NCBI RefSeq assembly: GCF_000379525.1
Contig: NZ_KB902441.1
Location: forward strand, 1-46,927
DNA from: Lamprocystis purpurea DSM 4197
GTDB lineage: Bacteria > Pseudomonadota > Gammaproteobacteria > Chromatiales > Chromatiaceae
DNA: 46,927 bases
Direction: 5' to 3'
Position 1 is the stretch's first letter. Every line of letters starts with the position of its first letter. A program made the position numbers and the translations under genes. The notes beneath the pieces were generated by a model that was not told the DNA's origin, made no database searches, and saw nothing but the letters and a program-made list of their open reading frames with translations. Of this stretch, positions 16,811-36,917 are shown piece after piece.

Positions 16811-16876
16811 TGACCGGCTGGCGCCTGTTGCCGTCGCGTGAGTGGTTTGGGTCAGGACAACAATGAGGAATTGGAG

Positions 16877-19876
16877 ATGAATCGATTCGGCATTGCCGTC
16901 GCTATCCTGATCTTGACCGGGTTGTCCGACCAGGTGCTCGCGGCAGCGGACGCCCCGGCCGATGAGCCGATCCTGGAGGTGGACGCGGGCGGCCATCGGG
17001 CTTTTATCATGGGTCTGTTGGTGACAGCCGACGGGCGCGAGTTGGTCTCGGCCTCCTGGGACGGGACCATCCGCATCTGGGACCTCGCGAACCGCCGTGA
17101 GGTGCGGCGTATCCTCGGCGAAATCAGCCCCGGCTATGGGGAGGTCAACGCCATCGCCCTGAGCCCGGACGGACGCTGGCTGGCCGTCGGCGGCAATTTC
17201 GCGCGTGACCCGCAGGCCATGGGCGCGCTCCGGATCTACGACTTCGCCAGTGGCCGACTGGCCCAGGTACTGAGATCCCACACCGACGAGGTCAGCGATC
17301 TCGACTTCTCGCCGGACGGCCGCCGGCTGGTTTCCGCCTCCATTGACCGGACCCTGAAAGTCTGGGACCTGGGAAGCGATGTTCGTCTGGAGCGGACACT
17401 CACGGGCCACACCGCGGACGTCTATGCGGCCCGCTTCCTGCCCGACGGGCGCATCGTCTCCGCGGGCTACGATAACCAGATCCTGCTGTGGGACGGCGAC
17501 CGGGTCGTGGCCCGTTATCGCCACGACGAACAGCTCAAGAGGCTCGCGGTGGCCCCCGGCTACATTGCCGCTGTTCCTGATTCCGGCAACAAACTCCTGG
17601 TTTTCGACGACGACCTCAAGCTCCAGCACACGCTCAAGAACCCCGGTGGACTCGACGCCTTGGCCGTCTCGCGCGACGGCCGCTGGCTGGCGGTCGGCGC
17701 GGCGGACCACCCGATGACCTGCTCCCTCTACAACGCCCAACAGGGGTTCAAGCGACAGACCGACTTCACCAAACACGACAATGTCGTCACGGCCATCGCC
17801 TTCCTCCCCGACGGGACCCTGGCCTCCGGCGGCGGCAACAATAAGGACATCTATTTTTGGGACCAACAGGGACGGGAACTGGGCCACACGGCGGGCCAGG
17901 GCCGAGCGGTGTGGGCCGTGGGTCTGGACGACACGGGGCTGCGGTGGGGGCATCGGCTGGAGTCGGATATCTACAACAACACTAACCCGCTCGATCAACG
18001 ACTGGACCTCGACACCTGGGTCCGCGAATCGGTGAGTGCAGATAAGGCGACCAAGAAGGCGACCAAGAAGGCGAAAGGCACCGGGGCTGGGGCGGCGGGT
18101 GGTCGACCGACCCGGATCGCAACCCAATGGTCCGGCGACGGACACCGATGGGCCCTCAAGCACGTACCAGGCGGCAACTATGGTAACCAGGACGCGACCC
18201 TGATCCTGAGTCGCGACGGCAAGGAATCCGCCCGCATCACCCGCGGCCGCGACGACGGCTACGGGCATCTGAGCTATGGCTTCACGGCGGACGGCACCAT
18301 CGTCTCGTCGGGGCAAGGCGGCTACCTGATCGCCTACGCCCGCGACGGCAAGGAACTGGCCCGCTTCATCGGTCACGATGGGGAAACCTGGTCACTCGCC
18401 ACCCGCGATCACTGGCTCCTATCGGGCGGCGACGACCAGACCCTGAAGCTCTGGAACCTGGACGTACTCAAGACCGGCTCCAAGGAGATCCAGCCCGCCC
18501 TGTCCGTCTTCCCCGCCGCCGATGGCGAATGGGTCGCCTGGACACCCAAGGGCTATTACCGGGCCTCGGCCAACGGCGACCGCTATGTGGGTTTCCATGT
18601 GAATCACGGCCCAGTCCAGGCCGCAGAGTATTTCCCCGCCGCGCGCTTTCGCGACAGCCTCAACCGCCCGGACATCCTGCAACTCGCCTGGGAAACCGGC
18701 AGCGAGACCGACGCGATCACCCGCGCCAGCCAGACCCGCCGCACCGAATCGGTCGCCACCACGCAACTCCTGCCCCCGCGCATTGTGCTCAGCGACCCCG
18801 TCGGCGGTCGCATCGAGAGCGCGGCCGAGTCAGTCAAGATCGCCTTCTGCGTCGAGTCCCAGACCAGCGAGCCCATCGGCGGCATCGAAGTCCTGCTCAA
18901 CGGCCGCCCGCTCGCCGCGGCCCGCGGCCTGGGGCGCACCGCCGAGACGCCCGCGCCGACGGCGGCACCCGGTGATACCGCCCTGCGCCAGTGCCGACAG
19001 CAGGACATCGCCTTGGCCCCGGACCTGCCCGAGCAGACCATCACCGTCCTCGCCCGCAACCGCTATGCCAGCGCCAACCCCGCGGTGGTCGAGGTGCGCC
19101 GCCAGTCCGTTGCTCCGGCGAACAACAGCTTCAAGCCCGACCTCTATGTCCTCGCCGTCGGGGTCAGCCACTACGCCCGCAAAGACCTCGACCTCGGGCT
19201 GGCGGCCGACGATGCCCAGTCCTTGGCCGGCGCATTCGAGGGCCAGAAGGCACTGTTCAACCGGGTGCAGGTGCGCCGTCTGAGTGATGCCGATGCCAGC
19301 AAGGATGCCGTGCTCGACGGCCTGGAATGGATCGATAAAGAGTCCACCCAACGCGACCTGGCAGTGATCTTTCTGGCCGGGCATGGGGTCAACGACGACC
19401 AGGGCCAGTATTTCTTTCTACCCCACGATGCCGACCCCGAACACCTGCGTCGCTCGGCGGTGCGCTGGGAGGAGATCAAGGATGTCGTGACCCACCTGCC
19501 CGGCAAAGTCCTGCTGCTGGCCGATACCTGCCACTCCGGTAACATCATGGGCGGCCAGCGCCGGGCGGCCGGGGCGGATCTCACCGCCGCCATCCAATCC
19601 ATCACCAGCGCCGGCACCGGTCAGGTGATCATGACCGCCGCCACCGGCTCCAGCGCCAGCCTGGAGGACCCCGCCTGGGGCCACGGCGCCTTCACCAAGG
19701 CCCTGCTCGACGGGATTGCCGGCCAGGCGGACTTCAATCACGACGGCAATGTCAGCGTCAAGGAACTTGATCTCTACGTGACCCAGCGCGTGAAGGAACT
19801 GACCGACGGGCGCCAGAAGCCCACCACCATCCTGCCGGAGTCTCTCCCGGACTTTGCGCTGTCGGTGCCCCGATGA
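16877..19876 (+). CDS. Exported WD40-repeat caspase-family (C14) protein
   Basis: This 999-aa protein begins with a signal peptide (MNRFGIAVAILILTGLSDQV, cleavage likely near VLAAA), so it should be periplasmic or outer-membrane associated. About seven WD40-type blades follow, including SASWDGTIRIWDL, SASIDRTLKVWDL, SAGYDNQILLWDG and SGGDDQTLKLWNL, with a Lys/Ala-rich insertion near 390-410. The C-terminal 250 residues form a caspase-like fold (DLYVLAVGVSHYARKDLDL) with catalytic His836 (FLAGHG) and Cys885 (DTCHSG). A complete EF-hand-like loop (DFNHDGNVSVKE) sits after the catalytic Cys. The ATG at 16877 with upstream gaggaattggag is preferred to a GTG at 16838. Substrate and role are unknown. 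Confidence 0.88.
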   Translation: MNRFGIAVAILILTGLSDQVLAAADAPADEPILEVDAGGHRAFIMGLLVTADGRELVSASWDGTIRIWDLANRREVRRILGEISPGYGEVNAIALSPDGRWLAVGGNFARDPQAMGALRIYDFASGRLAQVLRSHTDEVSDLDFSPDGRRLVSASIDRTLKVWDLGSDVRLERTLTGHTADVYAARFLPDGRIVSAGYDNQILLWDGDRVVARYRHDEQLKRLAVAPGYIAAVPDSGNKLLVFDDDLKLQHTLKNPGGLDALAVSRDGRWLAVGAADHPMTCSLYNAQQGFKRQTDFTKHDNVVTAIAFLPDGTLASGGGNNKDIYFWDQQGRELGHTAGQGRAVWAVGLDDTGLRWGHRLESDIYNNTNPLDQRLDLDTWVRESVSADKATKKATKKAKGTGAGAAGGRPTRIATQWSGDGHRWALKHVPGGNYGNQDATLILSRDGKESARITRGRDDGYGHLSYGFTADGTIVSSGQGGYLIAYARDGKELARFIGHDGETWSLATRDHWLLSGGDDQTLKLWNLDVLKTGSKEIQPALSVFPAADGEWVAWTPKGYYRASANGDRYVGFHVNHGPVQAAEYFPAARFRDSLNRPDILQLAWETGSETDAITRASQTRRTESVATTQLLPPRIVLSDPVGGRIESAAESVKIAFCVESQTSEPIGGIEVLLNGRPLAAARGLGRTAETPAPTAAPGDTALRQCRQQDIALAPDLPEQTITVLARNRYASANPAVVEVRRQSVAPANNSFKPDLYVLAVGVSHYARKDLDLGLAADDAQSLAGAFEGQKALFNRVQVRRLSDADASKDAVLDGLEWIDKESTQRDLAVIFLAGHGVNDDQGQYFFLPHDADPEHLRRSAVRWEEIKDVVTHLPGKVLLLADTCHSGNIMGGQRRAAGADLTAAIQSITSAGTGQVIMTAATGSSASLEDPAWGHGAFTKALLDGIAGQADFNHDGNVSVKELDLYVTQRVKELTDGRQKPTTILPESLPDFALSVPR

Positions 19877-19959: not shown

Positions 19960-20424
19960 TCAAAGATACCGATCGACCGCCCGCCGCCCGTAAGCGTCCA
20001 GGTCGCGGGTGTCGGCAACCAGATAGCGGATGCCTTGGGAATCGAGCAGCAGGGCGCTGTAGGGACCGAGCCGCCGGACATCGTCCTCGGTCTTGAGAAC
20101 GAAGCTGGTCCGACCGCGGTCGGTCTCGACTTCCCATTGGGCAGGCTCGAGGTAACTGGAAACCTGAATCACCCGCCGAATCTGCGGCACGAACTCACGG
20201 CGCGCCAGTTCGTCCTCCAGGGCCGTGCGAACCGCGTCCGGCAGGGCGGTAAGATCCTCGATACAACGCAACTCCCGCCCCTGCGCATCGCAGATGATCA
20301 CCCAATGGTGAGGGTCCGTGATCGGAAACGCCCGCACGGGCACCGCATCGGCATGTTCGCCGCCCGTCTCGTCGCGATAGACAAGCCGCCCCCAGGAGTC
20401 GATCCGCAACTGAAATTCAGGCAT
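19960..20424 (-). CDS. DUF1854 protein, cyanophycin-locus associated
   Basis: The 154-aa product (MPEFQLRIDSWGRLVYRDE start, VPVRAFPITDPHHWVIICDA, ALEDELARREFVPQIRRV, then a FVLKTEDDVRRLG helix) fits the DUF1854 family. That family typically sits next to an ABC transporter in cyanophycin gene clusters, as here, where it follows the ABC gene by 40 bp on the same strand and the synthetase-like genes are divergent. It is soluble, with no signal or membrane segment. Its biochemical role is unknown; the context suggests a part in cyanophycin metabolism or its control. Confidence 0.85.
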   Translation of the reverse strand: MPEFQLRIDSWGRLVYRDETGGEHADAVPVRAFPITDPHHWVIICDAQGRELRCIEDLTALPDAVRTALEDELARREFVPQIRRVIQVSSYLEPAQWEVETDRGRTSFVLKTEDDVRRLGPYSALLLDSQGIRYLVADTRDLDAYGRRAVDRYL

Positions 20425-20464: not shown

Positions 20465-22753
20465 TCACAGCGTCATATGCTGCTTCGCCTGCTCCAACTG
20501 CGCATGATAGAGCCTGGCATAGGTGCCCTTCTGGTCCAGCAGGGCCTTGTGGGTTCCGACCTCGCTGATCCGCCCGTGTTCCAGGACGACCAGCCGGTCC
20601 GCACGGCGCAGGGTGCTCAGGCGGTGCGCAATGGCGATGGTGGTGCGGCCCTGGGTAAGGTTGTCGATCGCCCCCTGAATCTCGCGCTCGGTCTCGGTGT
20701 CCACCGAGGAGGTCGCCTCGTCGAGGATCAGGATTTGCGGGTTGGTTAGCAGCGCGCGGGCAATGCTGATGCGCTGGCGCTCACCGCCGGAGAGCGACTG
20801 GCCGCGCTCCCCCACCAGTGAATCGTAACCGTCGGGCAGGCGCAGGATGAACTCATGCGCGCTGGCGGCGCGGGCGGCGGCGATGACCTCGGTGCGGGTG
20901 GCCCGCGGGCGGCCGTAGGCAATGTTCTCGGCGATGGTGCCGAAAAACAGGAAGGGCTCCTGCAGGACGATGCCGATGTTGCGCCGGTAGGCCTCGACCG
21001 GGAAGGAACGGATGTCATGACCATCCACCAGAATCCGGCCCTGGGCCACGTCGAAGAAGCGGCAAATGAGGTTGACGAGCGTGGTCTTGCCGGCGCCCGT
21101 GTGGCCCACCAGCCCCACCATCTCGCCGGGATCAATCGTCAGGTTGAGGTCGTGCAGGACGCGCCGCGGCCCGTAGTTGAACGAGACCCCCTGGAACTCG
21201 ATCGCGCCGCGTACCCGCCCCGGCAGCACCGGCTGGTTCGGTTCCGGGACGCTCGGCACCCGGTCGAGGATTTCAAACACCCGATGGGTGGAAGCGGCCG
21301 CCCGTTGAACGGCGCCCACCAACCGGGACAGCGCTTCCAGTCGGGCATAGAAGCGCCCGATGTAGGCGACGAAAGCGGTCAGCACGCCCACCGTCACGGT
21401 GTCCTGGCCGGCCTGCCAGACCCCGAAGATCCAGACCACCAGCAGACCCAGATCCGTCAGCAGCGTCACTGTCGGCCCGAAGAAGGACCAGACGGTGTTG
21501 ACCCTGGTGTTGGCGGTCACCACTCCCTCGTTGGCCTGACCGAACCGTTCGATCTCGCGCTGCTCCTGGGTGAAGGCCTTGACCACCCGAATGCCGGGGA
21601 TGGTGTCCGCCAGCACGCTGATCATGTCCGCCCAGGCGCGGCTGCCGCGCTCGAATCCATGGCGCAGCCGGGCGCGCACCCGCTGCACCAGCCAGGCGAT
21701 GAGCGGAAAGGGTGCGAGCGTGACCAATGCCAGCAGGGGATCGATGGAGATCAGGATCACCGCGACCATGAGGATGCTCAGCAGGTCGTTGACCAGATCA
21801 AGCAGACTCACCGAGAGGAAATTGCAGATCCGATCGGTGTCGCTGCCGATGCGCGCCATCAGATCGCCGGTACGCTTGCCGCCGAAAAACTCCAGTGAGA
21901 GCGCTTGCAGGTGGGTGTAGGTCTGACCACGCAGGTCGGCCGCGATCCGCTCGCTGACCACGGACATGACGAAGGTCCGTCCCCATCCCAACAGCCAGGC
22001 GAGCAGGGCCGCACCGCCGAGGCCGGCCAGATACAGGGTGGCCAGGTGGTAGTCGAGCGGGGCGCCGGTGCTTTGATGCGGGATCAGCACCTCGTCCAGC
22101 AAGGGCATGGTGAGATAGGGCGGCACCAGGCTCGCCGCGGTACCGCCCAGCATCAGCGCGAATCCCAGCAAGATCAGCCGGGCGCGCGGACGGGCGAAGC
22201 GCACCAGACGCCACAGTGAACGCCCGGGCGGTGGCAACGGCGGAGCGGAACAGAAGGCGCACTCGGTCTGCGCGGGCGCAATGACGGCACCGCAGCTCGG
22301 ACAGATGGTCCCCTGCTCGACGCCCGCGTCGGGCAGGTCGCCATGGTGTCGGCCGATGGCGGCAGTACAGCGCGCGGCGAACTGTTGTGCCGCCGCATGG
22401 CGAGCGGCCGTATAGCGCCATGAACTGATCCGTTCTCCGGTCCCCAGGATCTCGAGAATGCCGGCACCGCCGCGATGACCGGCGCGCACGCGCGCCAGGT
22501 CGGCGAGCGACCAGGCATCCCAGGGCGTACCGGGCGCGGCCGCCGAATCCAGGGCCAACAGGCGACGATCGGTCAGGCAGACCAGGCCGGCGACATAGTG
22601 GAGTTGCTGATCCAGGTCCGGCTCGAACCAACCGAGCGGACGTTCGTCGGGTCCCAGTTGACCCGCGAGTTCGGCCGCGCGCGGGTGGCGGGGGTCGTCC
22701 GGGGTGGCCGGCGCCGGGGCGCCAGGTTCAAGGTGAGACGTTGCGTTGGCCAC
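20465..22753 (-). CDS. ABC transporter, fused permease-ATPase, cyanophycin-locus associated
   Basis: The 762-aa half-transporter has an unusual N-terminal cytoplasmic domain (about 1-150) ending in a zinc-ribbon-like CPSC...CAFC pair (Cys151, 154, 165, 168). Six membrane helices follow (from about 190 to 470), then a nucleotide-binding domain with Walker A GHTGAGKTT, signature LSGGERQRIS, Walker B ILILDEATSS and H-loop AIAHRLS. Such proteins export lipids, peptides or small molecules as homodimers. Here it precedes DUF1854 and is divergent from the cyanophycin-synthetase-like genes, which fits the cyanophycin-associated ABC type; the substrate is unknown. The start is GTG (22751-22753); no ATG is available nearby. 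Confidence 0.9.
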   Translation of the reverse strand: MANATSHLEPGAPAPATPDDPRHPRAAELAGQLGPDERPLGWFEPDLDQQLHYVAGLVCLTDRRLLALDSAAAPGTPWDAWSLADLARVRAGHRGGAGILEILGTGERISSWRYTAARHAAAQQFAARCTAAIGRHHGDLPDAGVEQGTICPSCGAVIAPAQTECAFCSAPPLPPPGRSLWRLVRFARPRARLILLGFALMLGGTAASLVPPYLTMPLLDEVLIPHQSTGAPLDYHLATLYLAGLGGAALLAWLLGWGRTFVMSVVSERIAADLRGQTYTHLQALSLEFFGGKRTGDLMARIGSDTDRICNFLSVSLLDLVNDLLSILMVAVILISIDPLLALVTLAPFPLIAWLVQRVRARLRHGFERGSRAWADMISVLADTIPGIRVVKAFTQEQREIERFGQANEGVVTANTRVNTVWSFFGPTVTLLTDLGLLVVWIFGVWQAGQDTVTVGVLTAFVAYIGRFYARLEALSRLVGAVQRAAASTHRVFEILDRVPSVPEPNQPVLPGRVRGAIEFQGVSFNYGPRRVLHDLNLTIDPGEMVGLVGHTGAGKTTLVNLICRFFDVAQGRILVDGHDIRSFPVEAYRRNIGIVLQEPFLFFGTIAENIAYGRPRATRTEVIAAARAASAHEFILRLPDGYDSLVGERGQSLSGGERQRISIARALLTNPQILILDEATSSVDTETEREIQGAIDNLTQGRTTIAIAHRLSTLRRADRLVVLEHGRISEVGTHKALLDQKGTYARLYHAQLEQAKQHMTL

Positions 22754-23111: not shown

Positions 23112-25487
23112 ATGCCCGGTCGGCGACCCGATGCGCGACCGGAAGCCCTCGCCCGTACGATCAAGTCAGTTTCGGATCAAACCGTGGAAATCCGCAGAGT
23201 GCGCGCGTTGCTCGGCCCCAACCTCTGGGCCGACGTACCGATGGCCGAGATCTGGTGCGACCTGTCCGATCATTCGCCCGACGACCTCGCGGCGGCCAGT
23301 CAGCGTCTGCGCGCGCGGCTGACCGATCTGTTGCCTGGCCTGGACCTCCCCCGCCGACCATCCGCGGATCAGGGACACCTCAAGCACGAGCAATGGCTGG
23401 CGCGGGCGCTGCTGGCGACCATCCTCGAACTGGCCGCCCGCATCAGCGAGCGGCCCGGTGAGCGGCCGGGATTCAGCCAGATTCGCCGGACGTCGGAGCG
23501 CGGGCTCTATCGGCTGGCCTTTGAGCTTCGAGACGGACTGCCGCCGCAGGAATGCGCCGCGGTCGCCGTCGGGCTCGCCCGGTCGGTACTCACCGATACC
23601 CTCTACGACCTCCCGGCCAGCCTGGATCGATTACGCACACTGGCCCAGGAAGCACGGCCGTCGGCGACCTGCGCGGCCTTGATGAACGCGGCGCAGTCAC
23701 GCGGCATTCCCGCCCGTCGGCTCGCTCACAACCTACTCCAGTTCGGCCATGGGGCGCGGCAGCGGCGGCTCCAAGGCGGCACGATCCAGCGGGACGCCGC
23801 CGCCGTGCAACCGACGGCAACCGAGCGCGATCTGCTGCGAACCCTGCTCGCTTGCGTCGGCGTCACCGGCACGGAGGAACCCGTCGTCGGCCAGCACTAC
23901 CGGATGCTTGTCGCCGGCCGCCGCGTCTTGGCCGCGCTCGCCTGGCAGCCGGGCCGCGACGACAACGGCGGGGGCCCCACGGTCACCGATGTCAGCAATT
24001 TGATCCATCCGGAAGTCTGCGCCCGGGCGGTGGACTGCGCGCGCGTCCTTGGCCTTGAGCGCGCGGAAGTCCGGCTGGTCGCCGCCGACCTCACCCAGCC
24101 GCTGGCAGGCCAAGGTGGTCAGGTCAGCGAGGTGATCGCGAACCCGCCGCTGGATCTTTACCTGGAAGCGGTGCACACGCGCCCCATCGCCGAGGTCTTA
24201 CTCGATACGCTTTACCGCCCTGGGGAGAACGGTCGCATTCCGATCGTCGCCGTCTCCGGCACCAACGGCAAGACCACGGTCACCCGACTGGTCGCCCATG
24301 GTCTGAGCGTCTCCGGACGCTTCGTCGGCATGACCTGCACCGACGGCATCTATCTTGCCGATCGGCGCATCGACACGGACGACTGCAGCGGTCCCCAGAG
24401 CGCCCGGCTGGTGCTCCTGAATCCCGAGGTGGATGCGGCGGTGCTGGAGACCGCGCGCGGCGGCATCCTGCGCGAGGGCCTGGGCTTCGACCTCTGCGAC
24501 GTGGCCGTGGTCACCAATATCGGCGAAGGTGATCACCTGGGACTCAGCTCGATCGATACGGTCGAGGACTTGGCCGAGGTCAAGCAGACGGTGGTTCGCG
24601 GCGTCGCCCCCTGGGGCACGGCCGTGCTCAACGCGGCCGATCCGCTGGTGGTCCGCATGGCGGATCACTGCAAAGGCAAGATCCTGTTCTTCGCCCGCGA
24701 CGGCGCGCATCCCGTGCTCCTCCACCACCGCCGTCACGGCGGGCGGGTTGCCTGCATCCAGGGATCGGACCTGGTCCTCGCCGAGGGCGAAGCGGAGCGG
24801 CTGGTGCTCCCGCTCGATCGCATCCCGCTGACCCACGGCGGCCGCATCGGATTCCAGGTGGAGAATGCGCTGTCCGGCGCTGCCGCCCTGTGGGCGCTGG
24901 GACTGCCCATGGAGGCACTCTGTGCCGCGCTGGAGACCTTCGGCACCGACCTGGACAAGAGTCCGGGTCGTTTCAATGTGCTGACCATCAACGGCGCCAC
25001 CGCGGTGTTCGACTATGGTCACAACCCCTCGGCCCTGCTGGCGATGATCGATGCCCTGAAAGTCTTTCCCCACCGGCGGCGCATCGCCGTCTATTCCGCG
25101 GCGGGCGATCGGCGCGACGCCGATCTGATCCGGCAGGGCCAACTCCTGGGCCAGGCCTTCGACCGGGTCATCCTCTACGAAGACCAGTACGTCCGCGGAC
25201 GCCTGCCGGGTGAAATCATGTCGCTGTTTCGCAAGGGACTGGCCGCCGGCGACCGGGTCCAGGAAGTCGACACGATCCAGGGCTGGCAGGACGCGGTCGA
25301 AGCGGCACTCTGGCTTGCCCAACCCGGCGATCTGTTGCTGGTGCAGGCCGACTCGATCGATGAAACCGTCGCCTATGTCCGCACCCGTCTGGCCGAGGAC
25401 CTGAGCCGCCGTGACCCCCTGTTGCATCAGCAAGGATTCGCCGGCGCCGCGGGCACGGAGAACCCGGCCGTGCTGGTGCCGGCGTAG
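23112..25487 (+). CDS. cphA: Cyanophycin synthetase-like protein with deleted ATP-grasp core
   Basis: Cyanophycin synthetase adds Asp (ATP-grasp domain) and Arg (Mur ligase-like domain) to multi-L-arginyl-poly-L-aspartate. This 791-aa paralogue keeps an N-domain (EIRRVRALLGPNLWADVP) and a complete Mur ligase half: P-loop GTNGKTT (from Gly383), METARGG-like LETARGGILREGL, NIGEGDHLG, and the C-terminal DYGHNPSALLAMIDAL. The ATP-grasp domain is reduced: the VVKP..GNHGRGV and ERFIPGADHR segments of the neighbouring copy are missing, and the EVNAGPGLRMHLEP element is altered to EVIANPPLDLYLEA. It is therefore expected to lack Asp ligation. The start may be ATG 23112 or GTG 23184; the latter matches where homology with the second copy begins. 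Confidence 0.85.
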   Translation: MPGRRPDARPEALARTIKSVSDQTVEIRRVRALLGPNLWADVPMAEIWCDLSDHSPDDLAAASQRLRARLTDLLPGLDLPRRPSADQGHLKHEQWLARALLATILELAARISERPGERPGFSQIRRTSERGLYRLAFELRDGLPPQECAAVAVGLARSVLTDTLYDLPASLDRLRTLAQEARPSATCAALMNAAQSRGIPARRLAHNLLQFGHGARQRRLQGGTIQRDAAAVQPTATERDLLRTLLACVGVTGTEEPVVGQHYRMLVAGRRVLAALAWQPGRDDNGGGPTVTDVSNLIHPEVCARAVDCARVLGLERAEVRLVAADLTQPLAGQGGQVSEVIANPPLDLYLEAVHTRPIAEVLLDTLYRPGENGRIPIVAVSGTNGKTTVTRLVAHGLSVSGRFVGMTCTDGIYLADRRIDTDDCSGPQSARLVLLNPEVDAAVLETARGGILREGLGFDLCDVAVVTNIGEGDHLGLSSIDTVEDLAEVKQTVVRGVAPWGTAVLNAADPLVVRMADHCKGKILFFARDGAHPVLLHHRRHGGRVACIQGSDLVLAEGEAERLVLPLDRIPLTHGGRIGFQVENALSGAAALWALGLPMEALCAALETFGTDLDKSPGRFNVLTINGATAVFDYGHNPSALLAMIDALKVFPHRRRIAVYSAAGDRRDADLIRQGQLLGQAFDRVILYEDQYVRGRLPGEIMSLFRKGLAAGDRVQEVDTIQGWQDAVEAALWLAQPGDLLLVQADSIDETVAYVRTRLAEDLSRRDPLLHQQGFAGAAGTENPAVLVPA

Positions 25488-25554
25488 GGTCCGCTGCGCG
25501 GACCGACGACCTCACCACCATCCACTCACCGCCAGTCCCCCGCCATTTCACAAA

Positions 25555-27735
25555 ATGCTCGAAATCCGCCGCCTCTGGGTCCTGCGTGGACCGAACATCT
25601 GGGCTCAGTTCCCGGTCATCGAGCTGGAACTGGACCTGGGCGAGATCAAGGACACCTCCTCCGAGGAGATTCCCGGATTCAACGACCGCATCAAGTCCTG
25701 GCTGCCGTCGATGATCGAACACCGGTGCAGCGTGGGCGAGCGCGGTGGCTTCTTCCAGCGGCTGGACCGGGGCACCTACATGGCCCACTGCCTGGAACAT
25801 GTGACCCTGGAACTCCAGACGCTGGCCGGCACCCCGGTGGGTTTCGGCCGGGCCCGCGAGACGCAGGAGGACGGAGTCTATAAGGTCGCCATCCGGTATC
25901 AGGAGGAAGCACTGGGCCGCGCCGCGGTAGAGAGCGCGCGCGACCTGCTGCTCGCCGCCATCCATGATCTGCCGTTCCCCGTGGCTGAGACCCACGAACG
26001 GTTGCTCACCCTATGCCGGGAAGTCCGCCTGGGGCCGAGCACCGCCGCCATCGCCGCGGCCGCCCGCGCACGCGGCATCCCGGTCCGCCGGCTCGGCACC
26101 GAGAACCTGCTGCAACTCGGCTGGGGCGCCCGGCAGCGGCGCGTCTGGACCGCCGAGACCGACCGCACCAGCGCCATCGCCGAGTCGATTGCCCAGGATA
26201 AGGATCTGACGCGGATGCTGTTGGACTGCGCCGGAGTCCCGGTCCCGGCCGGCCGCACGGTGGCGGACGCCGACGCCGCCTGGGCCTTCGCCGAGGAACT
26301 GGGCGCACCGGTCGTGGTCAAGCCCCGTTACGGCAACCACGGCCGCGGTGTGACCGCCAATCTGAGTACACGTGCGCAGGTCGCGCAGGCCTTCGCCGCC
26401 GCCCGCGAGGAAGGCTCCACCATTCTGTGCGAACGCTTCATCCCCGGCGCCGATCACCGCCTGCTGGTGATCGGCGAGCGTCTGGTGGCGGCCGCCCGCC
26501 GTGAGCCGGCGCAGGTGACCGGCGACGGCCGTTCCAGCATTCGGGCACTGGTGGACGCGGTCAACCAGGACCCACGCCGCGGCGCCGGTCACGCGACCAT
26601 GCTCAGCCGCATCGAACTGGATGGAATCGCACTGACCGTGCTGGCCGAACAGGGCCTGACACCCGACTCGGTACCGGCCGCCGGGCAGCGCATCCTGCTG
26701 CGCCGCAACGCCAATCTCAGCACCGGCGGGACCGCCGTCGATGTGACCGATCAGGTCCACCCGGAGGTCGCGGCCCGCGCCGTGGAAGCCGCCCAAGTGG
26801 TCGGACTCGACATCGCCGGGATCGACTGCCTTGCCGAAGACATCAGCCGCCCCCTGGAGGACCAGGGCGGCGCCTTCATCGAGGTCAACGCCGGACCGGG
26901 ACTGCGCATGCATCTGGAGCCCTCGGCCGGGTCACCGCGCCCGGTCGGCGAGGCCATCCTCGACGCGCTCTTCCCGCCCGGCGCAGACGGCCGGATCCCC
27001 GTGGTCGCCGTCACCGGCGTAGAGGGCAAGACCACCACCACCCGGCTCATTGCCCACCTCCTGGACGGCACCGGCGTGCTGGTAGCTGCGGCCGCCGCCG
27101 ACGGCCTGCACATCGGCGCGCGCTGCATCGACCCGCGCGACGCCACCGGGCCGCGCAGCGCCCGCGCCGCGCTCCAACATCCACGCGTCGAAGCGGCGGT
27201 GCTGGCGACCGCGCGCACCGGCATCCTGCAGGAGGGCTTGGGCTTCGACCGCTGCCAGGTCGGCGTGGTGACCACGATCGGTGCGGACGCGCCCTTGGGG
27301 CCGCGCGGCATCGCGACACTGGAGGACCTGGTCCGGGTCAAACGCTGCGTGGTGGAAGCGGTCCTACCCGCGGGCAGCGCGGTACTCGATGCCGAAGATC
27401 CCCTGGTCGCTGAAATGGCCGAGCGTTGCCGGGGCGCCGTTCTGTGGTTTTCCCGCGACCCGGCGCATCCGCTGATCGCCGCCCAGCGCGCGACGGGCGG
27501 CCGGGCGGTGGTGGAACGGACGGGGATGATCCGGTTGCTCGAGGGTGCGGCTGAAACGCCGCTGCTGGAGCTGATGCTGGTTCCCATGACCGGGGACGGA
27601 TGCGACGATCGCGGGGTGCGCAACCTGCTGGCCGCTACCGCCGCGGCCTGGGCGCTCGGACTGTCGGCGGATCAAATCCGCGCTGGTCTGACCAGCTTCC
27701 GACTTCCTCCAAGGCATTGTTCTAACGCAAGCTGA
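25555..27735 (+). CDS. cphA: Cyanophycin synthetase-like protein, intact ATP-grasp, degenerate and truncated Mur domain
   Basis: The 726-aa protein starts MLEIRRLWVLRGPNIWAQFP and keeps the N-domain (AHCLEHVTLELQTLAG) and a full ATP-grasp domain: VVVKPRYGNHGRGV, CERFIPGADHRLLVIGERL, NANLSTGGTAVDVTDQVHP and FIEVNAGPGLRMHLEP. The Mur ligase half has a P-loop GVEGKTT (from Gly488), but the conserved Glu of LETARGG is Ala (LATARTG), and NIG..DHLG has become TIGADAPLG. The chain ends at LTSFRLPPRHCSNAS, before the C-terminal Mur domain (PGRFN, DY.HNP), so it is about 150 residues short. It should bind ATP and ligate Asp but probably not Arg. It follows the first copy by 67 bp on the same strand. 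Confidence 0.88.
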   Translation: MLEIRRLWVLRGPNIWAQFPVIELELDLGEIKDTSSEEIPGFNDRIKSWLPSMIEHRCSVGERGGFFQRLDRGTYMAHCLEHVTLELQTLAGTPVGFGRARETQEDGVYKVAIRYQEEALGRAAVESARDLLLAAIHDLPFPVAETHERLLTLCREVRLGPSTAAIAAAARARGIPVRRLGTENLLQLGWGARQRRVWTAETDRTSAIAESIAQDKDLTRMLLDCAGVPVPAGRTVADADAAWAFAEELGAPVVVKPRYGNHGRGVTANLSTRAQVAQAFAAAREEGSTILCERFIPGADHRLLVIGERLVAAARREPAQVTGDGRSSIRALVDAVNQDPRRGAGHATMLSRIELDGIALTVLAEQGLTPDSVPAAGQRILLRRNANLSTGGTAVDVTDQVHPEVAARAVEAAQVVGLDIAGIDCLAEDISRPLEDQGGAFIEVNAGPGLRMHLEPSAGSPRPVGEAILDALFPPGADGRIPVVAVTGVEGKTTTTRLIAHLLDGTGVLVAAAAADGLHIGARCIDPRDATGPRSARAALQHPRVEAAVLATARTGILQEGLGFDRCQVGVVTTIGADAPLGPRGIATLEDLVRVKRCVVEAVLPAGSAVLDAEDPLVAEMAERCRGAVLWFSRDPAHPLIAAQRATGGRAVVERTGMIRLLEGAAETPLLELMLVPMTGDGCDDRGVRNLLAATAAAWALGLSADQIRAGLTSFRLPPRHCSNAS

Positions 27736-31517: not shown

Positions 31518-32012
31518 ATGAGCTTGCTGCAAACCAGGCCCGCCCTACCCAGCGACGACAAGCGCTGGAAGTTGGTCAATGCCGCGATGCGTCGCAACGG
31601 CTATGCCGGGCACGCCTTGATCGAGACCCTGCACAGCGTGCAGGAGTCCTTCGGTTATCTGGACGAGCCCGCGATGCGTTTCGTCGCCGGGTCGCTTGAC
31701 CTGCCCCTGTCCAAAGTCTACGGGGTGGCGACCTTCTACCACCTCTTCATGCTCAAGCCCAAAGGCCGCCACGCCTGCGTGGTGTGCACCGGCACCGCCT
31801 GTTACATCAAAGGGGCGGGGGCGCTGGTGGATGCGGTCGAAGCGCGCTTCGGCGTCAGACCGGGCGAGACCACCGAGGACGATCGGCTCTCAGTGCTCGC
31901 CGCCCGCTGCGTCGGGGCCTGCAGCCTGGCTCCGGCCGTGGTCGTCAATGGCGACCTCGCCGGCAAACAGACCGCGGACCGTCTGGTGGCCAAACTGGAG
32001 GAGCTCGCATGA
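31518..32012 (+). CDS. hoxE: Bidirectional hydrogenase diaphorase subunit HoxE
   Basis: The 164-aa protein is a NuoE-like [2Fe-2S] subunit of the NAD-linked hydrogenase. Its cluster ligands are in [11 protein letters not shown] and [10 protein letters not shown], matching the four-Cys pattern of the family. The helical N-terminus ([29 protein letters not shown]) is written here as [15 protein letters not shown] and is typical. The ATG at 31518 is chosen for its strong aggagggg ribosome binding site. The stop codon overlaps the hoxF ATG (ATGA), so both are translationally coupled. HoxE, HoxF and HoxU together pass electrons between NAD(H) and HoxYH. Confidence 0.96.
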
Positions 32013-33616
32013 ATCTGGACGATCTGGCCGAGAAGGCCGAGGAATACCGCGCCCGCGACGCCGGTATCACCCACGAGGTCCGCGTCTGTGTGGCCGCGGC
32101 CTGCCAGTCCGGCGGCTCACTGCCGGTGTTGGAGGCGCTCAAGGCGGAGTGCAGCGACGGCGGGACCTGTAAGGTCAAAGGGGTCGGCTGCATGGGCCTG
32201 TGCTCGGCCGGCCCCATGGTGGCCATCGCGCCCAAGGGCGGGACCATCCCGGATTCGATCCTGTACCGGGAGGTCAAGCCACACGACGCGGTGGAGGTGC
32301 TGGCCAGCGTCGGCGGTACCCCGGTGGAGCGGCTGCACACCCCCACCGATCAGCCCTTCTTCGCCCGTCAGCAACGGATCGTGCGCGAGAATTCCGGGCT
32401 CATCGACCCGGAGAGCTTCACCGGTTATGTCGCCGCGGGCGGCTATGCCGGCCTGATCAAAGCGCTGAGCGAGATGACACCGGGCGACGTGCTGCGCGAA
32501 ATGACGACCAGCGGCCTGCGCGGCCGCGGCGGCGGCGGCTATCCGACCGGCCTCAAATGGTCCACGGTCGCCAAGATGCCGGCCGACCAGAAGTATGTCA
32601 TCTGCAACGGGGATGAGGGTGATCCGGGCGCTTTCATGGACCGTGCGGTCCTGGAGTCCGACCCGCACCGGGTGCTGGAGGGCATGGCCATCGCGGCTTA
32701 TGCCATCGGCGCCACCAAGGGTTACGTCTATGTCCGCGCCGAGTACCCGCTGGCCGTCGAGCGGATGGAACTCGCCATCCGCAAGGCCAAGCGGTCCGGC
32801 TTCCTGGGGAGCAAGATTGCCGAGACGCAGTTCAGCTTCGAGGTCGAAATCCGCCTGGGCGCCGGGGCCTTCGTGTGCGGCGAGGAGACGGCCCTGATGG
32901 CGAGTATCGAGGGCCTGCGCGGCCAGCCCCGCCCGCGCCCCCCCTACCCCGCCGAGGCCGGACTCTGGGGCTATCCAACCCTCATCAACAACGTGGAAAC
33001 CTTCGCCAACATCGCCCCGATCATCACGCACGGGGGCGAATGGTTCGCCGGGATCGGGACCGAGAAATCCAAGGGCACCAAAGTCTTCGCGCTCGCCGGA
33101 TCGATCAGGAACATCGGCCTGATCGAAGTCCCGATGGGCATGTCGCTGCGTGAGATCATCGAAGAGATCGGCGGCGGCTGTCCCGGCGGCAAGGCGTTCA
33201 AGGCGGTGCAGACCGGCGGCCCCTCGGGCGGCTGTATTCCCGCCCAGCACCTGGACATCGCGGTCGATTACGACAGCCTGAAAACCTTGGGCACCATGAT
33301 GGGCTCCGGCGGCATGATCGTCATGGACGAAACCTGCGACATGGTGGACGTGGCACGCTATTTCATGGAGTTCTGCATGAGCGAGTCTTGCGGCAAGTGC
33401 ATCCCCTGCCGCACCGGGACCTGGCAGATGCACGAACTGCTCGATCGCATCACCAAGTCCAAGGGCACCCACAAAGACCTGGCCCTGCTGGAAGAACTCT
33501 GTGACGTCGTCCAGGCCACCAGCCTGTGCGGACTGGGGCAGTCGGCACCCAACCCGGTGCTGTCGACCTTGCGGTATTTCCGTGAAGAGTATGAGGCGAA
33601 GTTGACAGCCGAATGA
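32009..33616 (+). CDS. hoxF: Bidirectional hydrogenase diaphorase subunit HoxF (NADH- and FMN-binding)
   Basis: The 535-aa protein is the NuoF-like subunit. An N-terminal [2Fe-2S] domain ([22 protein letters not shown]) is followed by the FMN and NADH site ([28 protein letters not shown]), the SLBB region, and a C-terminal [4Fe-4S] site ([12 protein letters not shown], then SLCGLGQ). It oxidises NADH or reduces NAD+. It starts at the ATG overlapping the hoxE stop. The stop overlaps a further ATG that opens a 46-codon scrap, not hoxU. Confidence 0.97.
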
Positions 33617-33753
33617 TGCATTCTCAACCTGATTCGGACTTCTACGCCTGGGCGACGGAAAGCGCGGCCCGACTGCGCGACGGACGGGTGTCCGAGGCGG
33701 AATGCCCGTTCGGCATAGAGCAACTGCTCAACATGGAATTTTGGGCAGAGTGA
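33613..33753 (+). pseudogene. DUF29-like N-terminal scrap (46 aa) between hoxF and hoxU
   Basis: The frame starts at an ATG overlapping the hoxF stop and encodes a 46-aa peptide with DSDFYAWATESAARLRDGRVSE, close to the N-terminal DFYAW...LLR.G pattern of DUF29 proteins (shown in part: DFYAWATESAARLRDG). The rest of a DUF29 protein (about 100 residues more) is missing. I interpret it as a remnant caught in the hox operon. It might still be translated by coupling to hoxF. The following 91 bp to hoxU contain no other frame. Confidence 0.55.
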
Positions 33754-33844
33754 GTCATTTGGAATCCGTCATTCCCGGTCGTACCGATTGGCACCTGAAC
33801 GCCCAGCAACCGACTAAAGAGACACGACGACACCCGGAGCACCC

Positions 33845-34576
33845 ATGCCCCCACCCGCCCCACAACCCAATGTCCGCGTCGTTACACTCACGATCGACGG
33901 TAAGGATTTCTCGGCCCGCGCCGATGAGACCGTCATCGAGCTGTGCCGGGAGAACAAGATCCCGATCCCCAGTCTCTGCTACATGGATGGCCTGAGCATC
34001 TGGGGCGCCTGCCGCCTGTGCCTGGTGGAGGTCGTCGGTCAGGGTCGGCTGGTCGCCGCCTGCTCCACCCGCGTGGCGGAGGGGATGAACATCCTGACCA
34101 ACACCGAGCGGCTGCAGCGCTACCGCCGCACCATCGTGGAATTGCTCTTTGCAGAGCGCAACCATGTCTGTTCGGTATGCGTTTCCAACGGTCACTGCGA
34201 ACTCCAGTGGCTGGCGCAGAAATGCGGCGTCGACCATGTGCGCGTGCCTTACCGCCAGGTGCGCAACGAGGTGGACTCCTCACACGAAATGTTTCGCCTG
34301 GACCACAATCGCTGCATCCTTTGCACACGCTGCGTGCGGGTATGTGACGAGATCGAAGGCGCGCATACCTGGGACGTCATGGGCCGCGGCAGCGACTGTC
34401 GGGTCATTACCGACCTGGCCCGCCCCTGGGGTGAGAGCGAGACCTGCACCGGCTGCGGCAAATGCGTCCAGGTCTGCCCGACCGGTGCCCTGGTGAAGCA
34501 GGGAACCTCGGCCGGCGAGATGGTTAAAGACCAACATTTCCTGCCCATCCTTGCCCGCCGGAGGCACGCCCAATGA
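33845..34576 (+). CDS. hoxU: Bidirectional hydrogenase diaphorase subunit HoxU
   Basis: The 243-aa protein corresponds to the NuoG N-terminal part. It has a [2Fe-2S] ferredoxin domain ([19 protein letters not shown], then ACSTRV), the His/Cys [4Fe-4S] region ([17 protein letters not shown]) and two ferredoxin-like [4Fe-4S] motifs ([25 protein letters not shown]). It wires HoxF to HoxY. A ggag sits 5 nt before the ATG. The stop overlaps hoxY by 4 bp. It is separated from hoxF by 228 bp containing a DUF29-like scrap, an unusual gap in this operon. Confidence 0.97.
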
Positions 34577-35121
34577 CGACCCCTGCAACCCCGCGGATCA
34601 CCGTCGCAACCGCCTGGCTGGACGGTTGCTCCGGCTGCCATATGTCGTTCCTGGACATGGACGAGCGGCTGGTGGACTTGGCTCAGAAGATCGACATCGT
34701 CTACAGCCCGTTGGTGGACGCCAAAGAACTGCCGGAGCAGGTGGATGTCGGTATTCTTGAAGGATCGATCTCGTCCGAGTCGGATTTGCATCATGCGAAG
34801 GAGTTCCGCAAACACTGCAAACTCCTGATCAGCCTCGGCGACTGTGCCGTCAACGGCAATGTCCCGGCCATGCGCAACCCCTTCAAGCTGGCGGATGTCA
34901 TGGATCGGGCCTACCGCGAGAATGTCGACCTCCAGCCGCAACTGCCGACCGTGGGCGTGCCGGTGCTGTTTCAGCAGGTACGCCCGATCCACGGCTGCGT
35001 GAAAGTCGACGTGTTCGTTCCCGGCTGTCCGCCCCACGCCGACGCCATCTTTTATGTACTGAACGAGCTGATTGAGGGACGCACGCCCGACCCCAGTCGG
35101 GTCACCCGCTTCGGCGCCTGA
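34573..35121 (+). CDS. hoxY: NAD-linked [NiFe] hydrogenase small subunit HoxY
   Basis: The 182-aa protein is the short, single-cluster small subunit of group 3d hydrogenases. It has no Tat signal, as expected for a cytoplasmic enzyme. Proximal [4Fe-4S] ligands are in [12 protein letters not shown] (Cys19, Cys22), SLGDCAVNG and VPGCPPHAD. It relays electrons from the HoxH [NiFe] site to HoxEFU. Its ATG overlaps the hoxU stop, with ggaggc upstream. A small gene of unknown function, not hoxH, follows after 20 bp. Confidence 0.97.
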
Positions 35122-35141
35122 TTGCAGAGGAACCAAGACCG

Positions 35142-35435
35142 ATGGCCGCTAACGAACCCAATAGCGAAGACGGACTCCTCGTCGTCTTGCTTGACCGGAT
35201 GCGCACGCAGCGCCTGCCGCGCATCCTGGGCATTAAGACCAAGGTCGACGCGGGCGGCGCCCTCGATCAGTCCGACATCGACTTCCTGAACGAGATCTTC
35301 GACGACGCGAACAACAATAAGGCGATCTGGGACCGCCATCCGGAACTCCATGACATCGCCGCGCAGATGGTCTCGCTCTACCGCGAGATCACCGCGCGCG
35401 CCCTGGCCAATGAGGGCGGGGCTTCACCCGCGTGA
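35142..35435 (+). CDS. Small unknown protein within the hox operon
   Basis: The 97-aa soluble, acidic protein (LLVVLLDRMRTQRLPRILGI, then DIDFLNEIFDDANNN, then WDRHPELHDIAAQMVSLYRE) is predicted to be helical and has no Cys. I do not recognise a named function. It has a clear agagga ribosome binding site 10 nt upstream and sits between hoxY and hoxH with gaps of 20 and 54 bp, so it is very probably co-transcribed. Its position suggests a role tied to the hydrogenase, such as assembly, but that is inference only. Confidence 0.8.
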   Translation: MAANEPNSEDGLLVVLLDRMRTQRLPRILGIKTKVDAGGALDQSDIDFLNEIFDDANNNKAIWDRHPELHDIAAQMVSLYREITARALANEGGASPA

Positions 35436-35489
35436 CCCGTAGCGCACCCGGCGCGCCCTCCCAACCGATTTTCCAAGGGGACTGAACCC

Positions 35490-36917
35490 ATGAGCCGCAC
35501 CATCACCATCGAACCGGTCACTCGCATCGAGGGTCATGCCCGCATCACACTCCAGCTCGGTGACCAGGGCGAGGTTGAGGATGCCCGGTTTCACCTCACC
35601 CAGTTCCGCGGCTTCGAGAAGTTCTGCGAGGGTCGCCCCTACCGCGAGATGCCGGCGCTGACCGCCCGGACCTGCGGCATCTGTCCGGTCAGCCATGTGC
35701 TTGCCTCCAACAAGGCGTGCGATCACCTGCTCTCGGTCACCATCCCGCCCACGGCCGAGAAGCTGCGGCGGATCATGAACCTCGCCCAGATCACCCAGTC
35801 CCACGCCCTGTCCTTCTTCCATCTGTCCTCGCCCGACCTGCTGCTGGGCTGGGACTCGGACCCGGCCACCCGCAATATCTTCGGGGTCATGCGTCAGGAC
35901 CCGGCCCTGGCCAAAGACGGGATTCGGCTGCGGCAGATCGGCCAGATGATCATCGAGATCCTGGCCGGCAAGAAGATCCATCCCACCTGGGTGGTTCCGG
36001 GCGGGGTCGCCGAAGCCCTGACCCAGGAGAAGCGCGAAGCCATCCTCAAGCTCCTGCCCGAGGGGCTGGAAATCGCCAAGCGCACCTATGGCTTCTTCAA
36101 GACACTGGTCCCCAAATTCAAGGACGAGACCAGCCACTTCGGCACCCGGCCCACGATGTTCATGAGCCTGGTCACGCCCAAGGGCAATCTCGAGCACTAT
36201 GACGGCTTCCTGCGCATCAAGGACGCGCAGGGGCGGATCGTGGAGGACATGGTGCCGACGGTGGACTACCAGCGTCTGGTGGGCGAGGCGGTGGAAGACT
36301 TCAGCTACATGAAGTTCCCCTACTACAAGCCCATGGGCTATCCCAAGGGCGTCTATCGGGTCGGCCCCCTGGCGCGACTCAACAACGCGGAAGCCTGTGG
36401 AACACCCTATGCCGACGTGGCCCTGGCCGAGTTCCATATGCTGCAGGAATACGGTCCCATCACCAGCAGCTTCCACTACCACTACGCGCGGCTGGTCGAG
36501 ATCATCTTCGCCATCGAGATGATGGAGCGGCTGCTCAAGGACCCGGACATCCTGGATCATCGCGTCCGCGCCCGAGCCCGCAGCAACCGCGACGAGGGCA
36601 TCGGTGTGTCCGAGGCGCCGCGCGGCACGCTGATGCACCACTACCGCATCGACGATGACGGACTCATCACCTGGGTCAACCTGATCATTGCCACCGGACA
36701 TAACAACCTGGCCATGAATCAGGCCATCCGTCAGGTCGCGGACGCCTATGTCGACGGCAATCACCTCCAGGAAGGCATGCTGAACCGGGTCGAGGCCGTC
36801 ATCCGCTGCTACGACCCCTGCCTGTCCTGCGCCTCACACGCGTTCGGGCAAATGCCGCTGGTGATCGAACTCAAGGACGCCGCGGGTCAGGTGGTTGATC
36901 GGTTGACGCGGGGCTAG
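35490..36917 (+). CDS. hoxH: NAD-linked [NiFe] hydrogenase large subunit HoxH
   Basis: The 475-aa catalytic subunit carries the two [NiFe] motifs: RTCGICPVSH (Cys62, Cys65) and DPCLSCASH (Cys444, Cys447, His450). A 25-residue C-terminal tail after His450 should be cut by the endopeptidase HoxW, encoded about 200 bp downstream. The N-terminal EPVTRIEGHARI motif is standard. The enzyme reversibly couples H2 to NAD+/NADH in the cytoplasm. An aagggga ribosome binding region precedes the ATG. A REP palindrome lies 59 bp after the stop. Confidence 0.98.
   Translation: MSRTITIEPVTRIEGHARITLQLGDQGEVEDARFHLTQFRGFEKFCEGRPYREMPALTARTCGICPVSHVLASNKACDHLLSVTIPPTAEKLRRIMNLAQITQSHALSFFHLSSPDLLLGWDSDPATRNIFGVMRQDPALAKDGIRLRQIGQMIIEILAGKKIHPTWVVPGGVAEALTQEKREAILKLLPEGLEIAKRTYGFFKTLVPKFKDETSHFGTRPTMFMSLVTPKGNLEHYDGFLRIKDAQGRIVEDMVPTVDYQRLVGEAVEDFSYMKFPYYKPMGYPKGVYRVGPLARLNNAEACGTPYADVALAEFHMLQEYGPITSSFHYHYARLVEIIFAIEMMERLLKDPDILDHRVRARARSNRDEGIGVSEAPRGTLMHHYRIDDDGLITWVNLIIATGHNNLAMNQAIRQVADAYVDGNHLQEGMLNRVEAVIRCYDPCLSCASHAFGQMPLVIELKDAAGQVVDRLTRG

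Follow-up and report, generated by a model that had tools for sequence, protein, structure and literature searches.

Complementary loss of lid modules in tandem cyanophycin synthetase paralogues of Lamprocystis purpurea and other Chromatiaceae: a candidate two-component enzyme

The cyanophycin synthetase CphA1, represented by the structures of SuCphA1 (7LG5) and TeCphA1 (7WAE), has been described as a single self-sufficient chain with three active sites: a peptidase site in the N domain, which makes primers (PMC9262961, accessible text), an ATP-grasp site (G) and a Mur-ligase site (M). Its core modules form the dimer and tetramer contacts. According to the accessible text of PMC9427784, CphA2 of the N2-fixing cyanobacteria (7TA5, 8FXH) has neither the M lid nor the standard P-loop of the M site and joins beta-Asp-Arg dipeptides directly. 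Here we describe two adjoining cphA-like genes, A and B, in a stretch of 46,927 nucleotides from Lamprocystis purpurea DSM 4197 (NZ_KB902441.1, the window), which jointly hold all the modules of CphA1 (N, Gcore, Glid, Gomega, Mcore and Mlid), whereas the three sites, found on one chain in CphA1, are distributed over two. The second gene resembles CphA2 in the missing Mlid and P-loop, but it has an N-domain motif which CphA2 does not. The locus is also similar to the tandem cphA genes called Group 1 in PMC10687191, the accessible text of which already noted two cphA copies with an ATP-binding cassette (ABC) transporter, and to what we call below Burkholderiales-type pairs: in all of them two paralogues stand beside a transporter of the same family and the sites are divided.

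The module and residue patterns suggest that A and B are probably the two subunits of a heteromeric (two-component) cyanophycin synthetase. The genes THSYN_26990/26995 of Thiodictyon syntrophicum Cad16T, apparently orthologous to this pair, were already called two subunits of cyanophycin synthetase in the genome paper of that organism, the accessible text of which contains no domain analysis, residue map or comparison. No description of the reciprocal loss or of a natural heteromeric CphA was found in the literature searched, which is weak evidence of novelty, the subscription papers being mostly outside the search. What is new is best read as a conserved two-component variant of a known enzyme, the sites of which are divided in other ways among relatives.

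Modules and active sites of the two genes

The modules were mapped with the published boundaries of TeCphA1 (PMC9427784, accessible text) on an alignment numbered on SuCphA1. Gene A kept most columns of N (149/161), of the three parts of the G core (72/73, 19/19 and 86/88), of Mcore (236/236) and of Mlid (146/146), while Glid (7/71) and Gomega (10/75) were nearly gone. In gene B, the N domain (156/161), the G core (73/73, 19/19 and 88/88), Glid (68/71), Gomega (75/75) and Mcore (236/236) were all present, and Mlid (9/146) was the only missing module. In A, then, the losses are the two insertions into the ATP-grasp core; in B, the loss is the Mur-domain lid. The initial annotation had reported two adjoining CphA paralogues on the same strand, and both open reading frames and every motif it named were found in the translations; its statement that A is without the ATP-grasp core had to be corrected, since all three parts of this core are there and only the two inserted modules are missing.

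Profile and structure searches gave the same division. Above the Pfam cut-offs, A matched only Mur_ligase_M and Mur_ligase_C and no ATP-grasp family; B matched the cyanophycin N domain, RimK ATP-grasp and, weakly, Mur_ligase_M, and had no Mur_ligase_C. In a sequence search of the PDB, A aligned to CphA1 in two blocks, the N-terminal one and about 400–869, and B aligned to positions 3–722 of SuCphA1. The curated CphA1 cut-offs were cleared by B (886.7 versus 850 bits for TIGR02068, 1036.6 versus 877 for NF010623) and not reached by A (550.4 and 651.1, respectively). AlphaFold2 models, which were single-chain and have no bearing on a complex, had CphA1 chains as the best matches both for A (pLDDT 87.3, pTM 0.87, 41-row alignment; TMq 0.83) and for B (pLDDT 92.6, pTM 0.89, 40-row alignment; TMq 0.92).

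The active-site residues, numbered as in CphA1, were tabulated over the 12 intact A–B pairs of the family described below. All M-site residues checked were intact in 12/12 A proteins, including the P-loop GTNGKT[TS], in agreement with the Mur landmarks initially reported for A, while neither the N nor the G set was kept in any of them: in 12/12 the positions of K261 and H267 lie in a module that is absent, and Arg stands in place of D431, a ligand of Mg. In B, all nine G residues examined (K220, K261, H267, R309, R323, D431, E450, N452 and R458) were present in 12/12. The ATP-grasp domain and the absence of a C-terminal Mur domain, as originally noted for B, were both borne out. The M site of B is dead: the P-loop, H586 and Mlid were lost in 12/12, D585 was left only in loci L042 and L043, and the other M residues varied. 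In neither protein are working G and M sites combined. The initial annotation had not considered a third active site, the primer peptidase of the N domain with its motif Cx19HxxEH; it is intact in B (11/12, the window's B included) and lost in A (0/12).

Conservation and selection in Chromatiaceae

Of the 194 genomes of the family sample, 21 gave a match to A (E <= 1e-30). The A–B pair was intact in 12 of these and decayed in one, and eight had CphA-like genes without the pair. Thus the same reciprocal loss recurs in the Chromatiaceae, the survey of which had been proposed initially: the intact pairs came from the window's own genus (seven) and two others, g57 (four) and g47 (one). In the eight pairless genomes the CphA-like genes stood in frames of 810–944 amino acids (aa), all three sites being shown for L085 only, with L054 and L056 degenerate at some sites. 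The intact orthologues were 60–94% (A) and 58–93% (B) identical to those of the window; in 12/12 the order was A then B on one strand with a gap of 4–208 bp, and the module losses lay at the module boundaries and were the same from pair to pair, 0–9 of the 146 Mlid columns being left in B. Each of the 12 loci, searched in all frames, had a single significant copy of Glid, Gomega and Mlid, other matches having E of 0.046 or worse. Assemblies of very few contigs, G107 with three and G132 with one, were among those with the intact pair. A single ancestral event is indicated by the loss boundaries, which are nearly identical across the three genera.

No further CphA besides A and B was found in the window genome, where all 29 candidates were scored; 15 weaker matches elsewhere in it (frames of 335–1088 aa, best 47.1 bits) were read as other Mur ligases and ATP-grasp proteins, though not identified one by one. 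Likewise, only A and B were present among all the candidates of the four g57 genomes, and genome G047 had, with every candidate scored, A, B and a third protein only. In genus g57 the pair occurred in 4/7 genomes and neither gene in the remaining 3/7. The CphA-associated ABC transporter reached its cut-off in 12/210 genomes of the order, which were exactly the genomes with the intact pair; 7/12 had it within 0.5 kb of A, in G107 the distance was about 4 kb, and G127, G142, G035 and G047 carried it on a contig separate from A.

Selection was estimated as omega (Nei-Gojobori) pooled over four close orthologue pairs, nine pairs having been tried in all. The live modules had the lowest values, 0.08 for Mcore and 0.09 for Mlid of A and 0.13–0.14 for N, Gcore and Glid+Gomega of B; purifying selection, for which the initial annotation had proposed to test the remaining sites, acts on both genes. 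The dead modules reached 0.18 (N of A), 0.18 (lid-less Gcore of A) and 0.26 (Mcore of B, 0.20–0.33), with upper 95% limits all at 0.33 or less; they are therefore relaxed yet constrained, as expected with a structural role. A complete third cphA with both copies here evolving neutrally, which the initial annotation had named as counter-evidence, was thus not what was found.

In the genome with the decayed pair (G079, a 3-Mb member of the window's own genus) A was broken across several frames, B was in frame only to residue 290, and the cyanophycin-associated ABC transporter had no match. A loss of cphA was also reported for the endosymbiont Ca. Thiodictyon intracellulare by its authors (PMC8195481, accessible text). 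The claim of one working copy each of G and M over two genes, kept by selection, is accordingly supported by the occurrence in three genera, by co-occurrence and co-decay, by purifying selection on both genes and by a window genome in which no third CphA was found; the obligate partnership of A and B, also proposed initially, would be in line with this sequence pattern.

Genome G047 (L050, L051), a metagenome-assembled genome (MAG; 81% complete, 3% contamination), presented a different case. Its A has only the M site, its B is without the N site and has only G, and on another contig a third protein has an intact N site, no Mlid and a G site altered by R323G and R458I. The contig ends shared no overlap, and the tetranucleotide correlation of the compared contigs (0.97–0.98) supports their origin from one genome. 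Provided that the MAG is sound, the three sites stand there on three proteins, and the loss of the N site from B coincides with its supply by another protein.

Divided sites in relatives and possible arrangement of the enzyme

For comparison, 21 Burkholderiales-type pairs were used (L078–L082 and L188–L203), the taxon being inferred from their likeness to the named records L093, L097 and L098. Of the 29 genomes matched by search, G000, G316 and G432 were included already, 19 were added (16 pairs and the single genes L204–L206) and seven were left out (G753, G823, G952, G645, G848, G910 and G951). Outside the 21 stood L097 (a long-frame pair with the same N pattern), L098 (frames in pieces, which show the same N pattern), L093 (gene 2 only, N dead) and L119 (a single odd CphA without the N residues). 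In 21/21 of the pairs counted the motif Cx19HxxEH was present in gene 1 and absent from gene 2. Gene 2 kept the M site and, of the G residues checked, all apart from E215 and, in 19/21, H267, which was Gln there, as also in several single-chain CphAs; in gene 1, R323 and R458 were replaced in 21/21 and Mlid was missing in 19/21. The division is thus N in gene 1 and G+M in gene 2, instead of the N+G / M of A and B. The two gene 1 proteins which kept Mlid (L190 and L192) also kept nearly all M residues (T522 being Ser), and three planctomycete pairs, in which the N motif was divided in the same way (3/3), kept the M residues of gene 1 except H748 (Arg; in one also T522 as Ser). Consequently, two M-like copies are present in these pairs, which limits the idea of one copy of each site, as does a further CphA-like match far from the pair in G849.

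Single-chain relatives with all three sites were found in planctomycetes (L088 and L090), in L095 and, beside the same ABC transporter and DUF1854 genes, in G742, where Mlid is truncated by the contig end. In Octadecabacter (L103), Acidobacteria (L105) and Plesiocystis (L107) a full-length CphA is followed by an M-intact gene with most of G missing; these loci differ from A/B in that the adjoining CphA has all three sites and does not need the companion for M. The same arrangement was seen in L084. Relatives therefore divide the sites too, and among the loci examined the N+G / M split occurs only in Chromatiaceae. A number of almost identical orthologues, together with a few rows that were broken or long, were excluded from the trees. 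In the best tree A grouped with B, apart from the Burkholderiales-type pairs (UFBoot 92, SH-aLRT 99.7), and in the best tree of the M domain A stood with single-chain relatives (76/69); the placement of the M core of B was unreliable because of long branches. Approximately unbiased (AU) tests did not reject those alternatives to the best trees that were compared (p 0.10–0.44), leaving a local duplication of a single-chain ancestor as the best but unproven origin.

As the two subunits of one enzyme, A and B would have the following functions. The peptidase of the N domain of B would cut chains into primers, its G site would add Asp to the end of the backbone, and the M site of A would add Arg to the side chain of that Asp. 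Each gene has dropped the lids of the site it gave up (Glid and Gomega in A, Mlid in B) and kept all cores, and the retention of the cores makes a mixed A:B dimer or an A2B2 tetramer the simplest arrangement, in which the chain would alternate between the G site of B and the M site of A. That sites can be shared across protomers follows from work on SuCphA1: according to the accessible text of PMC9262961, mixed dimers in which one protomer had a live N site and the other live G and M sites were active.

Several points weigh against such a two-component enzyme. It is deduced from sequence, and the SuCphA1 precedent divides N from G+M, whereas A and B divide G from M. Residue E215 is Ser or Ala in B; the E215A mutation cost TeCphA1 most of its activity and had a smaller effect in SuCphA1, and Glu at this position is also absent in other tabulated CphAs. 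W672, which is needed for the tetramer of SuCphA1 and the mutation of which made that enzyme dimeric, was kept in neither A nor B by the alignment on SuCphA1, so that a tetramer is no more likely than a dimer. The values of omega varied between single pairs, that of the B Mcore reaching 0.84 in L046/L047 with a small sample, and for the six other pair genomes of the window's own genus the finding that A and B are the sole copies refers to five scored candidates in each. Pairs of relatives with both domains intact in one partner had been named initially as an argument against the proposal, and the Burkholderiales-type pairs, with G+M in gene 2 in 21/21, do literally correspond to it; the best trees set A and B apart from them, although the AU tests did not reject the alternatives. 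In R. eutropha, which has two CphA homologues, the wild type made no cyanophycin (PMC11362209, accessible text), a result which argues against such pairs being active under the conditions of that work. Finally, TIGR02069 cyanophycinase, PF01112 (IaaA) and TIGR01975 (IadA) were matched in 0/16 genomes (13 Chromatiaceae including the window genome and three of the Burkholderiales type), in a search where the CphE and CphI types had no models of their own; the controls were matched in 2, 5 and 1 of 14, respectively. By comparison, the accessible text of PMC10206079 gives cyanophycinase in 2.8% and IadA and/or IaaA in 70.9% of 903 CphA1-bearing betaproteobacterial genomes. Cyanophycin is for this reason no more than the presumed product of the pair.

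Alternatively, A and B might be separate enzymes acting in turn on one chain without a stable mixed oligomer, for example with B as a homodimer through its Gcore and A on its own. The presence of two genes doesn't prove a complex, the G domain of B is complete, and SuCphA1 constructs dead in G and M, or the N domain alone, can serve another CphA1 in trans. Nevertheless, we regard this as unlikely: the low omega of the lid-less Gcore of A and of the lid-less Mcore of B suggests that these cores are still in contact, although homo-oligomers would fit this too. Still less probable is a CphA2-like role of B, joining beta-Asp-Arg dipeptides by its G site, A having another task such as dipeptide synthesis or the attachment of some other amino acid. 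Like CphA2 (PMC9427784, accessible text), B has neither Mlid nor a standard M-site P-loop, the motif GTNGKT[TS] being absent from B, and its model matched the CphA2 structures as well (TMq 0.68). However, its score lies above the CphA1 equivalog cut-off, its identity in the structural matches was 43% to CphA1 and 23% to CphA2, and it has the N motif absent from CphA2; R323 and R458, which contact the bound aspartate, are kept in it (the G residues of CphA2 itself not being part of this comparison), and no TIGR02069 cyanophycinase was found to supply dipeptides.

Two decaying paralogues with opposite losses by chance would agree with the differences among orthologues in the catalytic residues of the dead M site of B and with G079, where decay is indeed occurring in this lineage. 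Such an origin is very improbable in view of 12/12 intact open pairs at the identities given above and of losses positioned at module boundaries, and simple decay was rejected on the selection result, the pooled omega being far below 1 in every module. For an assembly or frameshift artefact masking complete genes, no point was found in favor, and its probability is negligible: the same state was present in 12 genomes, a one-contig assembly among them, no leftover significant Mlid, Glid or Gomega appeared in any frame, and the stop of B lies 22 bp before the end of a convergent DsbA-like gene. It was rejected on the independent assemblies and the all-frame module search.

On a wider scale, the N, G and M sites may have been dealt over one, two or three interlocking chains, as N+G / M in Chromatiaceae, N / G+M in the Burkholderiales type and N / G / M in one relative, with the cores kept since the products assemble one mixed enzyme; gene 1 of the Burkholderiales type would then be a dedicated primer-making subunit. 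This extension is tentative, and our confidence in it was lowered by the two M-like copies, by H267 as Gln in 19/21 and by the extra match in G849.

If A and B do form a two-component synthetase, the duplicated copies having lost complementary lid modules, they would clearly exemplify subfunctionalisation after duplication within a single enzyme, and nature would offer in them a parallel to the mixed dimers engineered for work on CphA1. How the growing polymer passes between G and M sites on different chains could then be tested with two genes, and for biotechnology the extension of the backbone and the addition of side chains would be separately controllable. The pattern also suggests that the genes of tandem pairs are better tested together than singly.

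The locus and its neighbours

A and B adjoin on the plus strand with 67 bp between them (Table 1). The most likely start of A is the GTG codon rather than the upstream ATG of its longest frame, judged from the equivalent position in the orthologues, which is GTG in 11/12 and ATG in 1/12.

Table 1. Features of the cphA locus in the window of Lamprocystis purpurea DSM 4197 (NZ_KB902441.1)
Feature	Position	Strand	Remark
Gene A, CphA paralogue, N- G- M+	23184..25487	+	767 aa with GTG start at 23184; ATG of the longest frame at 23112
Gene B, CphA paralogue, N+ G+ M-	25555..27735	+	726 aa from ATG 25555; end at Mcore/Mlid boundary
Glid (CphA1 235-305) missing in A, approximate junction	23864..23883	+	from alignment; base position by eye
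Gomega (CphA1 325-399) missing in A, approximate junction	23959..23978	+	from alignment; base position by eye
Mur ligase middle domain match in A (P-loop GTNGKTT, ETARGG, DHLG)	24252..24710	+	
Mlid module, sole significant copy at the locus (in A)	24948..25376	+	
Cx19HxxEH of the N domain of B, primer-generating peptidase site	25726..25800	+	
Glid module, sole significant copy at the locus (in B)	26245..26448	+	
Gomega module, sole significant copy at the locus (in B)	26506..26730	+	
Cyanophycin metabolism-associated ABC transporter (NF052233)	20465..22753	-	divergent, upstream of A
Cyanophycin metabolism-associated DUF1854 protein (NF052234)	19960..20424	-	divergent, upstream

Elsewhere in the window, a DnaB helicase with an in-frame intein bearing a LAGLIDADG domain was found at 2807–5914 (minus strand), a WD40-repeat protein with a caspase domain at the C-terminus at 16838–19876 (plus), and an AAA-ATPase-like protein with a PDDEXK_9 nuclease domain at 43647–45191 (minus). 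The region 31784–36917 (plus) encodes a Nuo51-like FMN subunit and a nickel-dependent hydrogenase, possibly in one hydrogenase operon.

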